DNA of 64,000 bases from Ramlibacter cellulosilyticus. GTDB lineage: Bacteria > Pseudomonadota > Gammaproteobacteria > Burkholderiales > Burkholderiaceae_C. The DNA is taken from NCBI RefSeq assembly GCF_014297465.1, contig NZ_JACORT010000008.1, positions 62,001-126,000 of the forward strand, read 5' to 3'. Below are positions 1,845-33,904 of the stretch, piece after piece. A program made the position numbers and the translations under genes. Under the pieces are notes generated by a model that was given only the letters and a program-made list of their open reading frames with translations, was not told the DNA's origin and made no database searches. The first letter of the stretch is position 1. The number at the start of each line of letters is the position of its first letter.

Positions 1845-2714
1845 ATGCCTGAACAGGTGCTCGAACTACCCACCGCCTGGGGCCGCCTGGCCGGCAGCCT
1901 GCTGCTGCCGGAAGGCGCCGGGCCGTGGCCGGCCGTGCTCCTGATCGCGGGCTCGGGGCCGACGGACCGCGACGGCAACACGCCGCTGCTGCCGGCGCCC
2001 CTGGACAACCTCAAGCGGCTGGCGCAGGGCCTCGCTGCGCGCGGGATCGCGAGCCTGCGCTACGACAAGCGCGGGGTGGGCGGGAGCATCTGCCCCGGCC
2101 TCAGCGAGAAGGCGCTGCGCTTCGAGCACCTCGTGGACGATGCCGGGCTGGCGGCGCGGTGGCTCGCACAGCACGAGCGCGTCGGCCGCGTGAGCCTCGT
2201 CGGCCACAGCGAAGGCGCGTTGATTGCCGCGCTGGCCGCCGGCGCAGCCGATGCGCAGGCCGTGGTCTCGATCGCGGGCGCGGGTTGCCGCGCTTCCACG
2301 CTGATGCGACGGCAGATCGAAGGCAACCTGCCGCCCGACCTGGCCGCTCCGGCGGTGGAGGCCTTGTCCTCGCTCGAAGCGGGGCAGCCGGTCGAGGACG
2401 TGCCGGATGCCCTGTTCCTGCTGTTCCGCCCCAGCGTGCAGCCTTACCTGATCTCCTGGTTCCGGCACGATCCGGCGGAGGTCTTGAGCGAGCTGGAAGT
2501 ACCCGTGCTGCTGGTGCACGGCGCCGCGGACCCGCAGGTGGGGCCAGAGCATGCGCTCGCGCTGCATGCGGCGCGGCCGGATGCGCGCCTGAAGATCGTG
2601 GAAGGGATGGACCACCTGTTGTCCCTCAAGGGGGACATCCCGGCGGGGACCCACGTGGTCGCGGGGGAGGTGGCTGCGTGGTTGCAGGGACTGGATGTGA
2701 GGCTGGCGGCGTAG
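1845..2714 (+). CDS. Alpha/beta hydrolase
   Basis: A 289-residue serine hydrolase with the canonical order of elements. An oxyanion strand (VLLIAGSGPTDRDGN) is followed by the nucleophile elbow GHSEG, an acid region near VLLVHGAADPQV, and a C-terminal histidine in GMDHLL. The GSGPTDRDGNTPL segment and YDKRGVG are typical of a BAAT/DLH-like acyl hydrolase group often annotated as serine aminopeptidase or alpha/beta fold hydrolase. The reading frame is open for 1.3 kb upstream, but that part is antisense to dctP. The ATG at 1845 is where homology begins. It sits between dctP and dctM on the opposite strand, so it is not in their operon. The substrate is unknown. Confidence 0.85.
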   Translation: MPEQVLELPTAWGRLAGSLLLPEGAGPWPAVLLIAGSGPTDRDGNTPLLPAPLDNLKRLAQGLAARGIASLRYDKRGVGGSICPGLSEKALRFEHLVDDAGLAARWLAQHERVGRVSLVGHSEGALIAALAAGAADAQAVVSIAGAGCRASTLMRRQIEGNLPPDLAAPAVEALSSLEAGQPVEDVPDALFLLFRPSVQPYLISWFRHDPAEVLSELEVPVLLVHGAADPQVGPEHALALHAARPDARLKIVEGMDHLLSLKGDIPAGTHVVAGEVAAWLQGLDVRLAA

Positions 2715-2728
2715 CGCTTGCGCGCATC

Positions 2729-2830
2729 GGTGGGGTTCGCTTCGCTCACCTTCCGCGGCTTGCGCCGCGCCACCCTACATCATGCGCCGATGTAGGGTGG
2801 TGGTGAGCCAGCGAAGCGGCGAACCCCACC
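2729..2830. repeat. Dispersed palindromic repeat, family A copy 1
   Basis: The outer arms are GGTGGGGTTCGC (2729) and GCGAACCCCACC (ending 2830). Inner arms carry CCACCCTACAT and ATGTAGGGTGG. It fills the gap between the convergent hydrolase and dctM genes. Related copies are at 10411, 23726 and 26140. Confidence 0.85.
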
Positions 2831-10403: not shown

Positions 10404-10410
10404 AATCCCC

Positions 10411-10559
10411 GGTGGGGTTCGCTGACGCTCACCTCCCGGCGCTGTCGCGCCGCCACCCTACGAGCAGCCGGCGCGCGCCGGATTGGGGGGGCGACGATGC
10501 GGCTGTTCGTAGGGTGGCGCGGCGACAGCCGCGGAAGGTGAGCGTCAGCGAAGCCCACC
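10411..10559. repeat. Dispersed palindromic repeat, family A copy 2
   Basis: Outer arms are GGTGGGGTTCGCTGACGCTC and its near-complement ending GCCCACC at 10559. Inner arms are CCACCCTACGA and TCGTAGGGTGG around a GC-rich centre. It lies between two convergent genes and overlaps the last codons of the acyltransferase gene that ends at 10545. Confidence 0.85.
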
Positions 10560-11525
10560 GCGCACGCGAAGCGTGAACATCGGCTGATCCAGGGCCCCCC
10601 ACCGATACTTGTACGCCTCCGCGCCGCGCAGGAAATCAAAGACCTTCGCGCCCTCGCGCGCCGCTTCCCCGATCGCATGCGCGAGCAGCAGGCTTCCCGG
10701 GCTGAACGCCGCATGCCGGGGATCGAAGCCGCCGATGTAGTAGTAGCAACGACGACGGTGCATCAGCACATGCAGCACCGCGACCAGCTCCCCGTCCAGC
10801 CGCAAGCCATGCAGCCGCAACACGCCCGCCGCATGCAGTCGCGGCGCCGCCTCGGCATGCGATGCACGCACCGCCTCGTCGGCCAGCACGCCGGGCAGTC
10901 CGCGTTCCTTCCACCGGCTCGCATGCAGGCGCGCGAGCGCATCGAGGTACGCGGGAATGGTGCCTGCGTCCGCCAGTTCGTACGTGATCGTGCCGGCACG
11001 GGCCGCGCGATTGCGGCACGTGCGCAGGTTCGCGAGCGTCGACTTCGGGATGGCCGCCGGCGGCTGCAAGGCGAGGACCGGATTCGGCTCGCCCGCGATC
11101 ACCTCCACGCCCGGCAGCGAGAGCAGCGCGCTCGTCCCCTGCAACTGCGGCCATTCCAGGACGTCCCAGTCGCGCCAGTGCATGACGCGCTCCAGCACGG
11201 CTTCCGCCACGGCCTTCTCCCATCCCTGGCGCGCGAGCAGCCCGAGGTAGTCGGTCGTGCCGATCCCGACGGGGAACAGGTGCCGCCGTCCGCCTGCATC
11301 CGTGTAGACGTAGAGCGGCGCCAAGCCCATGAGCCGGCCATCGTCGTCGCGCACCGCCAGGGCCCGTTCCTCACCCTTGCCCACATGCCTCCACCACGGC
11401 AGCAGCCAGTGCGGCGACTGGAAGGGCGTCGCGCTCGCATCTTCGCGCCAGAGCGCCTCCCACTCCGCTTCCAGCGCTTCGAGCGACTCGACGTCAGCGT
11501 GTGCCCGCGAGGCGGTGGTAGGCAT
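10545..11525 (-). CDS. CelD/BcsL-type GNAT acyltransferase
   Basis: The 326-residue protein starts at the ATG at 11525, where homology to the CelD family begins (EAEWEALWREDASATPFQSP, then WLLPWWRHVG). The C-terminal half has the GNAT acyltransferase pattern, including ARLHASRWKERGLPG and the acyl-CoA-site-like YYYIGGFDPRHAAFSPGSLL, and ends KVFDFLRGAEAYKYRWG. Proteins of this type N- or O-acylate sugars or peptides in polysaccharide clusters. It overlaps the upstream glycosyltransferase gene by 32 nt and is last in a four-gene cassette. The final few codons lie inside a family-A palindrome, so the extreme C-terminus (RVRGGLR) is partly repeat-derived. Confidence 0.85.
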   Translation of the reverse strand: MPTTASRAHADVESLEALEAEWEALWREDASATPFQSPHWLLPWWRHVGKGEERALAVRDDDGRLMGLAPLYVYTDAGGRRHLFPVGIGTTDYLGLLARQGWEKAVAEAVLERVMHWRDWDVLEWPQLQGTSALLSLPGVEVIAGEPNPVLALQPPAAIPKSTLANLRTCRNRAARAGTITYELADAGTIPAYLDALARLHASRWKERGLPGVLADEAVRASHAEAAPRLHAAGVLRLHGLRLDGELVAVLHVLMHRRRCYYYIGGFDPRHAAFSPGSLLLAHAIGEAAREGAKVFDFLRGAEAYKYRWGALDQPMFTLRVRGGLR

Positions 11526-16139: not shown

Positions 16140-16217
16140 TGCCGTGATTAGGCCAACGGCGAAGCTCAGCCGCTTGTAGGCGGGGGACGACAATCCGTCG
16201 CTGGGCCGGGTTTCGCT

Positions 16218-16376
16218 CGTAGGCTGGGTTGCGCGTATGCGCACCCCAGCGATGCGCGGAAGCGCTGGGGTGCGCTACGCGCAACCCAGCCTACGGCAAC
16301 TGCGCGCAACCCAGCCTACGGTCGCGCGCAACCCGGAGCGAAGCAGGCTGGGTTTCGCGTCAGCGAACCCCAGCGT
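16218..16376. repeat. Dispersed palindromic repeat, family B copy 1
   Basis: CGTAGGCTGGGTTGCGC (16218) is answered by GCGCAACCCAGCCTACG (ending 16295), and a second complementary arm follows immediately (ending 16320). A degenerate partial copy (CAGGCTGGGTTTCGCG) runs on to about 16376. It fills the gap between the fused gene and rfaD. Confidence 0.8.
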
Positions 16377-21934: not shown

Positions 21935-21971
21935 CTACGCTGGGGTGCGCTGCGCGCAACCCAGCCTACGG
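21935..21971. repeat. Family B repeat, partial copy
   Basis: TACGCTGGGGTGCGCTGCGC followed by GCGCAACCCAGCCTACGGG matches the right half of the element at 16218. It lies in the gap between aroA-cmk and rpsA. Confidence 0.6.
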
Positions 21972-21979
21972 GCAGACGA

Positions 21980-24067
21980 TCATCCGGAGACGAAGGGCTG
22001 CTTCTCTTCCCACCAGCCGAGGACCTGTGCCACCGATTCTTCAACCGTCTGGCCCGAGTTATCGAGGAGGAGGGCGTCTTCGGCAGGCTTGAGGGGCGCG
22101 ACGGCGCGACCGGAGTCGCGGGCATCGCGGGCCTCGAGGTCCGCGCGAAGGTCGGCCAGTGTAGCCGAAATGCCTTTTGAAATCAATTGCTTATGGCGCC
22201 GGTCGGCGCGCTGGGCGGCGCTGGCCGTGAGGTAGACCTTCAGCGGGGCGTCCGGGAAGATCACCGTGCCCATGTCGCGGCCGTCCGCCACCAGGCCCGG
22301 CAGCTTGCGGAAGCCTTGCTGCAGGGCCACCAGCGCAGTGCGCACCGCCGGCAGGGCGGAGACCTTGGAGGCGTTCATGCCGGCGGTCTCGGTGCGGATC
22401 GCGTCCGTCACGTCCTCGCCAGCGAGGATCACCCGGCCGTCCGTGAAGACGATGGGCAGCGTCTCGGCCATCCGGGCGATGGTGTGTTCGTGGGCGACGT
22501 CCAGCTCCAGGCCCGCGCGCGTGGCCGCCAGGCCGGCAATGCGGTACAGGGCGCCCGAGTCGAGGTAGTGGTAGCCCAGGCGGCGGGCGACTTCGGAGGC
22601 CAGGGTGCCCTTGCCGGAGGCCGTGGGGCCGTCGACGCAGATCACCGGGATGTGCGGCGGGTCGGTCCAGGTCACGGAAAACAGGGTCTCGAAGTAGTCG
22701 GGGAAGGTCTTGCCGACGCACGTCGGGTCCAGGATGCGGACGTGCGCCCCGGCCGGGTTGAACGCGGCCAGCGAGAAGCACATCGCCATCCGGTGGTCGT
22801 CGTACGTGCGGATGGTGGCCGGGAACCAGTTGGAGTCGCCGGGCGGGGTGACCTTCAGGAAGTCCGCGCCTTCTTCCACCGTGGCGCCCAGCTTGCGCAG
22901 TTCCTGCGCCATGGCGGTCAGGCGGTCGGTTTCCTTGACGCGCCAGCTCGCGATGTTGCGCAAGGTGGTGGGGCGGTCCGCGTAGAGTGCCATCACCGCC
23001 AGGGTCATGGCGGCGTCGGGGATGTGGTTGCAGTCCAGCTCGATGCCCTTGAGCGGCCAGGCGCCGCGGCGCACCTCGATCCAGTTCGGCCCGCTGGCGA
23101 TCGCGGCGCCCATCTGGCGGGCGGCGTCGACGAAGCGGATGTCGCCCTGGATGGAGCTGGCGCCCACGCCTTCGATGCGCACGGGAGCGTCCACGCCGGC
23201 GATCGCGCCCAGGGCGACGAAGTAGCTGGCGGACGAGGCATCCGCCTCGACGTGGATCTCGCCCGGGGACTGGTAGCGGCTGCCAGCGGGGATCGTGAAG
23301 CGCTCCCAGCCATCGCGGCGCACGGCGATGCCGAAGCGCTGCAGCATGTTGAGCGTGATCTCGATGTAGGGCTTGGAGATCAGCTCGCCGACGACCTCGA
23401 TGACGATGTCCTTGGTCGCCACCAGCGGCAGGGCCATCAGCAGCGCCGTGAGGAACTGGCTGGAGACGTCGCCGCGGACGGGGATGGGCGCGTCGAGGTT
23501 CAGCGACTGCGCGGGGTGGATGCGCAGCGGCGGGTAGCCCGCGCTGCCCAGGTAGTCGATGCGGCAACCGAGCTGGCGCAGGGCGTCGACGAGGTCGCCG
23601 ATGGGTCGCTCGTGCATGCGGGCGACGCCGGAGACCTCGAAGTCGCCGCCGAGGAGGGCCAGCGCCGCGGTGAGGGGGCGCATGGCGGTGCCGGCGTTGC
23701 CGAGGAAGAGGCGCTTCGCGCCGGCGGTGGGGTTCGCTTCGCTCACCTCCCGGCCGCTCGCGGCCGCCACCCTACGAATACCATCGGTTTCGGTCCCTGT
23801 AGGGTGGTGGTGAGCGAAGCGAACCCCACCGAGCCCGCTCACCTCCAGCACGGCGCCACTATGCACCACGCTGCACCCCAACGCCCGCAACGCATCCAGC
23901 ATCACCCGCGTGTCATCCGAATCCAGCAAGTCATGAATGCGCGTCGTGCCTTCGCTCAGCGCTGCGAGCAGGAGAACGCGGTTCGAAATGCTCTTCGACC
24001 CCGGCAAGACGACCGTGCCGGCAGCTTCTTCGAGGGGAGGGAGGTCGAGGAATGCGGTGGCGAACAT
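21980..24067 (-). CDS. aroA: Bifunctional EPSP synthase (AroA) / cytidylate kinase (Cmk) with repeat-derived insertion
   Basis: The 695-residue fusion has two domains. Residues 1 to about 465 are 3-phosphoshikimate 1-carboxyvinyltransferase (shikimate pathway), with [29 protein letters not shown] and the conserved RVKETDRL. Residues about 470-695 are cytidylate kinase, with P-loop [13 protein letters not shown] and the DGRDMGT motif. The fusion is known in Burkholderiales. Odd feature: codons 80-114 (nt 23830-23726) are exactly a 105-bp family-A palindrome. It adds 35 residues (GGVRFAHH...SEANPT) between a peripheral strand ending VLEVSGL and the phosphoenolpyruvate/glyphosate loop LFLGNAGTA. 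The frame is preserved, so the enzyme is probably still made. It lies 28 nt downstream of tyrA. Confidence 0.95.
23726..23830. repeat. Family A palindromic repeat inside aroA-cmk (in frame)
   Basis: GGTGGGGTTCGCTTCGCTCA at 23726 pairs with GAGCGAAGCGAACCCCACC ending 23830. Inner arms are CCACCCTAC and GTAGGGTGG. The length of 105 bp is a multiple of three, there are no stop codons in the host frame, and both ends coincide with codon boundaries. Confidence 0.9.
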
Positions 24068-26072: not shown

Positions 26073-26139
26073 GCGGAAGCGTGAACTATACCGGGAGGGG
26101 TGGGCGGAAGAGCGGTGGGGTGAGGCGGGAAAGGAGAGC

Positions 26140-26314
26140 GGTGGGGTTCGCTGGCGCTCACCTGCCCCGGCGGTCGCCGGGCCACCCTACAGGGAGCGGC
26201 CGTGGCGATTTCGGGCAAGACGATCGCGCGGCGATTCGAAATGAAACGATGGCGCCTCGGAGTTGTAGGGTGGCGCGGCGAAGCCGCGGACGGTGAGCGT
26301 CAGCGAACCCCACC
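26140..26314. repeat. Dispersed palindromic repeat, family A copy 4
   Basis: GGTGGGGTTCGCTGGCGCTC (26140) pairs with GAGCGTCAGCGAACCCCACC (ending 26314). Inner arms are GCCACCCTAC and GTAGGGTGGC around a longer, less symmetrical centre. It is nearly the whole gap between gyrA and pheA. Confidence 0.85.
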
Positions 26315-26328
26315 GCCCGCGCCAGCGG

Positions 26329-31339: not shown

Positions 31340-31351
31340 CCGTCGGTATTT

Positions 31352-31390
31352 CTCCCTCTCCCTCTGGGAGAGGGCTGGGGTGAGGGCACG
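31352..31390. repeat. 39-bp hairpin repeat, family D copy 1
   Basis: CTCTCCCTCTGGGAGAG forms a compact hairpin followed by GGCTGGGGTGAGGGCACG. An identical 39-bp copy is at 33842. It sits between the gph stop and the end of the convergent VanZ-like gene and lacks a T run. Confidence 0.85.
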
Positions 31391-31391
31391 C

Positions 31392-33804: not shown

Positions 33805-33841
33805 GGCCCGCGACTATACCGACCCCGCTCCCCCGGATTTG

Positions 33842-33880
33842 CTCCCTCTCCCTCTGGGAGAGGGCTGGGGTGAGGGCACG
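33842..33880. repeat. 39-bp hairpin repeat, family D copy 2
   Basis: This copy is identical over 39 bp to the copy at 31352. It lies between the galE start and the ssrA promoter. Confidence 0.85.
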
Positions 33881-33904
33881 CAAGGCCTTTGCCCAGCCAC
33901 CCTC

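Follow-up and report, generated by a model that had tools for sequence, protein, structure and literature searches.

We analyzed a window of 64,000 nucleotides (the whole stretch of DNA considered here) from the soil bacterium Ramlibacter cellulosilyticus, in which the gene aroA-cmk carries a palindromic repeat within the part encoding EPSP synthase, a key enzyme of amino-acid synthesis (Table 1). The product of this gene scored above the cut-offs of the NCBIfam models NF008816 (1158.7 bits), TIGR01356 (422.3 bits), and TIGR00017 (217.8 bits), and aroA-cmk was the sole EPSP synthase gene found in the genome. The second PF00275 protein of the genome is MurA (TIGR01072, 565.6 bits against a cut-off of 392.7).

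Table 1. Positions in the window of aroA-cmk, the parts of its repeat element, and further copies of the same repeat family.
Feature	Position	Strand	Details
aroA-cmk, bifunctional EPSP synthase/(d)CMP kinase	21980..24067	-	695 aa, no internal stop; ORF and NCBIfam
Family-A (GTAG-type REP) head-to-head dimer	23726..23830	-	in frame, codons 80-114, 35-residue peptide
REP unit 1	23726..23775	-	50 bp, GGTGGGGTTCGC...CCACCCTAC on + strand; GTAG end toward the middle; fold and sequence
Spacer between both GTAG ends	23776..23798	.	23 bp; read from sequence
REP unit 2	23799..23830	+	32 bp, GTAGGGTGGTGGTGAGCGAAGCGAACCCCACC; read from sequence
Family-A copy	2729..2830	+	G000:C32:64729-64830; 74% identity to the aroA copy
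Family-A copy	10410..10567	+	matching right part 10527-10567; window repeat groups D4 and D7
Family-A copy between pheA and gyrA	26139..26322	+	matching right part 26282-26322; window repeat groups D4 and D7

The open reading frame and the coordinates agree with the preliminary description, which had the element filling a run of whole codons in frame and without a stop: codon 80 of this minus-strand gene begins at position 23830 and codon 114 ends at position 23726. Although 35 codons are filled, as had been claimed, the loop gains 30 residues net, since the SDDT and LFLGNAG motifs are 70 residues apart in this protein, against 40 in each of the 62 orthologues without an insert among the best 120. 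The outer GG codons of the element overlap the usual GLGG of the loop. In an alignment to solved EPSP synthases the insert lies directly ahead of the LFLGNAGTA segment, and in 7tm4_A the flanks of the insert site are bridged by three residues; this alignment and the natural variation in length suggest that the loop is exposed. The uninserted orthologues lack the inserted residues in the alignment, which bears out the proposal that a complete repeat has created new protein sequence in AroA. We also looked for orthologues carrying the same residues in the absence of a repeat and for signs that the insert is removed or the gene inactive and replaced by another aroA, and found neither.

The features of a GTAG-type REP were recognizable in the element. 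A GTAG tetranucleotide at 23799-23802 on the plus strand and its complement CTAC at 23772-23775 face each other and lie outside the stem. Unit 1 contains an internal GGCCGC/GCGGCC hairpin and unit 2 has none, and the palindromic stem was evident for the dimer taken whole: the 105 bases fold as DNA into one near-complete hairpin (-48.1 kcal/mol, z -11.3), with none of 200 shuffles as good. Apart from this element, the window holds another repeat family, CGCTGGGGTGCGCTNCGCGCAACCCAGCCTACGG, at 16214-16375 and 21938-21971, one copy lying between aroA-cmk and rpsA. In one orthologue (P0008) the Cmk C-terminus ends in a family-A peptide tail, so that a repeat supplies the 3' end of the gene.

Family A across the genome and in other genes

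Family A is a high-copy, dispersed repeat. The 5.53-Mb genome contains 205 matches (102 + 103) to its strict core, GTGGGGTTCGCN{0,6}GCTCACC, and none to the reversed pattern used as a control; the matches listed occupy 100 places on nine contigs. The aroA copy is a head-to-head dimer, and many of the strict cores listed stand as close opposite pairs. The three further window copies reported earlier (2729, 10411, and 26140) were recovered by a repeat search of the window. The accompanying claim that family A is otherwise intergenic had been made for the window; genome-wide, two more in-frame copies were found, in mutL and in a gene for a LysE-type transporter, among 46 elements (the window plus 40 fetched stretches, the first 40 in list order and hence a non-random set). 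With aroA, three of the 46 are thus in frame in genes and 43 are not in frame in any recognized gene, the mostly intergenic distribution of a REP; status was judged by eye from GC content by codon position, and elements less than 50 codons from an ORF end were left unjudged.

One Y1_Tnp gene was detected in the genome and assigned as a REP-type tyrosine transposase, with an NF047646 score (74.7 bits) below the cut-off of 80. A search of the 3.3 kb surrounding it revealed no family-A motif. The movement of REP units is attributed to RAYT transposases, and the 2013 catalogue of intragenic GTAG REPs sees no clear link of transposase genes with REP families (PMC3733652), so the missing RAYT pairing does not exclude family A from the REPs. 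The transposase of this genome scores slightly under its cut-off and has no family-A units nearby, and we therefore do not credit it with moving the element, although a REP-associated transposase may have done so.

The in-frame copy in mutL (L141, G000:C1:1089067-1093067, core 1991-2011, minus strand) is a REP monomer, GTAG end included, in the MutL linker, a region in which many orthologues carry REP-like words in several frames. The copy in the LysE-type transporter (L146, G000:C3:31811-35811, core 1990-2013, minus strand) is a REP monomer, RWGSPGGSPSAAGAAPPYE, in a loop; many orthologues have related words, WGSPxGSPPPYE for example, which would fit an ancient REP insertion that became fixed. 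Repeat-like words were matched in 66 of 120 MutL linkers (residues 301-480) and REP-like words in 32 of 120 LysE-type transporters, or 75 of 120 by a looser word list, figures that are not insertion frequencies because the scans are loose (ANP[TS] can arise by chance). By eye, no palindromic-repeat insert was recognized in seven genes of the neighbourhood, ihfB, rpsA, tyrA, pheA, gyrA, ompA, or ubiG (24-31 relatives each); rpsA, gyrA, ompA, and ubiG had short inserts of 5-15 residues, and ompA one Pro/Ala stretch of 52 residues. The idea that aroA is the only affected gene was rejected, as the MutL linker and the LysE-type loop also have REP-derived segments. AroA is one of a few recurrent sites seen, and it stands out by the number of unrelated families and by the speed of their exchange.

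Repeat-derived loops in AroA of Ramlibacter and relatives

We compared the loop in the best 120 of 8000 scored AroA-Cmk sequences. The distance from SDDT to LFLGNAG was exactly 40 residues in 62 of them and longer in 58, reaching 46 or more in 54; because these are the best matches to this query, the inserted share leans toward its relatives. Repeat words were matched in 55 of the 58 longer loops by a peptide-word scan. Cassette labels, assigned by regular expressions on peptide words and in several cases soft, were A (21 loops), B (13), C (9), D (5), E (4), B+D (2), A+E (1), and other (3). Family A was present as single units and as dimers, and in opposite orders (P0001 versus P0012, P0005, and P0031); family B units likewise were differently arranged (P0024 versus P0103, P0034, and P0078), and composite cassettes were seen in P0028, P0103, and P0042. 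The big inserts of the 120-row alignment fall at this loop, except for length gains after residue 186 in five orthologues, a 12-residue insert after residue 379 in one, and end tails. The insertion in R. cellulosilyticus is real, as had been described. It had been treated as a single event, but throughout the genus many loops of repeat origin occupy this position. With regard to the second site, segments of the PPEGAAPPRGG type (27-28 residues) lie after residue 186-191 in L183, L184, and L189 (genomes G029, G007, and G002).

Within the genus, 37 genomes including that of R. cellulosilyticus (G000) were searched and the loop was read in 33, three being without a match and one match unread. Seven or more extra residues were found in nine of these loops, one to four in four, and none in 20. 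The cassettes comprised family A in G000, an A variant in G001, and a half-A peptide in G022; family B (PPPSGGRLGGG...PHPNPPPEGEGA) in G020, G025, and G027 and a half-B in G021; family E (FGLSLSKP...ALRQAQGERE) in G004; and family C (HVIPAQAGTQ) in G029. A set of 80 named loci, mostly from other genera, yielded 67 printed loops (that of L080 partial), the complete ones 30-39 residues long; R. paludis (C) and R. montanisoli, the latter with no more than a short relic, were the only ones in which a repeat was recognized.

Cassette DNA was compared by pairwise local alignment on both strands, with 200 letter shuffles for each of 21 pairs and uncorrected for multiple comparisons. Family A aligned with its variant, and the two B cassettes with one another, better than any of the 200 shuffles, while no likeness above the shuffles was detected among families A, B, C, and E, whose closest pairs, such as one B cassette and the A variant, were reached by at least nine of the 200 shuffles. 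Both B cassettes also aligned with a window repeat at 31344-31391 (0 of 200), whose reading frames include the D words SPQPSP. D cassettes are known as protein only, and this alignment indicates that B and D probably form one superfamily; five unrelated families were accordingly rejected, and we count four (A, B/D, C, and E). The repeat in question belongs to the palindromic CTCCCTCTGGGAGAGGG type, of which the window contains two 48-nt copies, 94% identical, at 31344-31391 and 33834-33881.

In all six genomes tested (G000, G020, G025, G027, G004, and G029), the family of the cassette was also a dispersed repeat of the same genome. The counts that follow cover both strands and include the aroA copy, and those of B were made with at most 40 candidates scored per genome. 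The strict A core, so abundant in G000, had eight copies in G036 and none in 15 other relatives, G001 and G022 among them. Matches to B numbered at least 55 in G020, 48 in G027, 60 in G025, 57 in G013, 30 in G000, 18 in G022, and 12 in G036, with two each in G004 and G029 and none in G015. Family E had 78 matches in G004 and none in the other five genomes searched, and the strict C core was found 46 times in G029, 19 times in G000, nine times each in G013 and G036, and not at all in three of the seven genomes searched. The resident repeat does not dictate the cassette, however. The B-rich G013 has no B cassette, just a short C-like loop one residue above the baseline, and G022 has a half-A peptide in its loop and no strict A core in its genome; both break the simple rule. 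B and C repeats are also resident beside A in G000.

Origin and turnover of the cassettes

Alleles that are nearly identical elsewhere carry different cassettes. Outside the loop, P0007 (A) and P0047 (D), both metagenomic, match at 635 of 636 residues and P0010 (A) and P0028 (B+D) at 625 of 635; identity over this part was 98-99.8% in the close pairs compared. When trees were built with the loop left out, 34-35 changes of cassette label were required and 10 between the inserted and uninserted states. If the starred branches (41 of 116) are counted alone, the label must still change 8 times for A, 4 for B, 3 for C, 4 for D, and 2 for E, by gain or loss. Tree support is modest, and merging B and D would lower these totals. 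Uninserted alleles (P0009, P0017, P0032, and P0040) are nested in the cassette clade.

We consider it probable that the AroA loop tolerates extra length and takes up, exchanges, and sheds palindromic elements of the local genome, with selection keeping the reading frame open. The loop between the end of the TG[IL]G strand and LFLGNAGTA would accept extra length and act as a recurrent capture site in a Ramlibacter clade, its tolerance being the likely cause of the hotspot. An element from the repeat pool of the genome itself, here a GTAG-type REP dimer, would insert in or beside the loop, and the survivors would be only the in-frame, stop-free products of a single-copy, presumably essential enzyme, on which the effect may be close to neutral. 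Cassettes would later be shortened, combined, exchanged for unrelated families, or lost; short-tract allele exchange is the probable means, with recombination the presumed route of swapping.

A related account has one early insertion that remodelled the loop, with later variety mainly due to replacement within it and to short-tract recombination between species; it overlaps the capture-and-turnover explanation, competes with it just over the share of fresh captures, and seems to us plausible at somewhat less than even chance. The flanks of the cassettes speak for it. A KR-type right flank was found in 34 of the 58 inserted loops, across families, while the HAR type was almost confined to uninserted ones (57 of 62, against one of 58 inserted). 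Over the 10-11 columns of the left flank, the seven close pairs with different cassettes differed by 0.41, against 0.036 elsewhere, though the close pairs are not independent of each other. The composite cassettes also fit replacement within an existing insert. However, the left flank evolved faster in the 11 same-family pairs (0.091 versus 0.017 elsewhere) and in the 35 uninserted pairs (0.074 versus 0.025) as well, so ordinary variability accounts for some of the excess; the three inserted-versus-uninserted pairs gave 0.13 versus 0.044. Moreover, loop length changed beside an identical left flank in P0033 versus P0032 and P0040 (0 of 10 differences), one family occurs in both orders and as singles, and the families match resident repeats in each genome tested. 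The right flank differs by state, which is not expected if elements had simply inserted again and again into a loop that stayed the same. Together, these patterns suggest that the loop was remodelled early and that its cassettes then turned over, with short-tract allele exchange, atop fresh captures. If so, the label changes on the trees overcount insertions.

The cassettes might instead be functional, the longer loop or an mRNA or DNA hairpin tuning EPSP synthase activity or aroA-cmk expression, with selection for some cassette, whichever one. Unrelated families do bring a hairpin, and of four real cassettes that were folded, three gave a better fold than any of 200 shuffles; the loop lies directly ahead of LFLGNAGTA and cassettes are frequent in one clade. 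Yet for a single C unit 21 of 200 shuffles folded equally well, which is within chance, size, family, and order vary freely, and the MutL linker behaves similarly. The nested uninserted alleles, in addition, mean that a cassette is dispensable in that clade, and we regard selection for the cassettes as quite unlikely. A combined reading, in which the AroA loop is an evolving cassette site whose peptides are swapped by short-tract recombination and the long loop is actively maintained through effects of loop length or hairpin on enzyme or expression, we likewise hold to be unlikely.

Site-specific integration, with the elements drawn to a target sequence or hairpin in aroA, would account for cassettes all lying in the same short loop, but their left boundaries shift by a few residues with the family (TGL|APPPSGG, TGLG|GVRF, TGLG|TPWVPA, TGIQG|HVIPA) and no shared recognition is expected of families unrelated in sequence, which makes it very improbable. 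An assembly or annotation artefact is scarcely credible: metagenome assemblies do break at repeats, and many of the 120 orthologues, including both P0007 and P0047, are metagenomic, but the contig of R. cellulosilyticus is 281 kb long, cassettes occur in the named isolates R. pallidus (P0057), 'Ramlibacter ginsen...' (P0024), and R. paludis (L044), and the same-genus aroA matches have no internal stop, the single row with stops being a 58-residue match to another repeat copy in the R. cellulosilyticus genome.

Relation to known elements and significance

REPINs and BIMEs are terms for paired inverted REP units with RAYT transposases. The elements described here resemble them in their paired inverted units, high copy number, and the one REP-type tyrosine transposase gene in the genome, and differ from the typical REP-RAYT pairing in that family-A motifs were not found in the 3.3 kb around that gene. 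The preliminary description had likened the aroA element to the in-frame palindromic peptides of Rickettsia, in another family and host. This comparison was reasonable, but elements of the same kind had already been described, according to the text of PMC3733652, in the 2013 catalogue, in which more than half of the intragenic GTAG REPs were dimers or groups encoding 20-30 amino acids. Like the aroA case, the intragenic GTAG/CGTC REPs reported there are GTAG palindromes, head-to-head dimers, and in frame in conserved genes. The RPEs, as described in PMC10969869 and PMC3733652, are short palindromic elements in frame in many Rickettsia genes, and in-frame insertion in coding genes is common to both. 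Unlike the RPEs as described, the elements studied here have a different host, several families make use of a single site, and 43 of the 46 family-A copies inspected are not in frame in a recognized gene.

PMC3733652 describes a precedent in recB, where two Xanthomonas species carry different REPs at roughly one position, and proposes loops and linkers as neutral sites. That case concerns the REPs of two species, whereas here four unrelated families share one loop genus-wide, and near-identical alleles with different cassettes are a feature of Ramlibacter AroA absent from the recB case as reported. The main text of that paper mentions neither Ramlibacter nor aroA, phosphoshikimate, EPSP, or mutL, and the titles and abstracts listed by searches of the open-licence PMC literature included no report of repeat cassettes in AroA or of palindromic repeats in Ramlibacter. 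In-frame REP insertion is thus known, and AroA of Ramlibacter adds to it a site at which such insertion recurs with several families and rapid turnover.

The AroA loop allows repeat capture, turnover, and loss to be watched at one site over very short divergence. Its naturally occurring alleles, which belong to one well-assayed enzyme and differ in a single loop of repeat origin, make it possible to test whether palindromic elements within proteins are neutral passengers or useful raw material. Should the long loop prove to be actively maintained, selfish palindromes would be serving as interchangeable parts.
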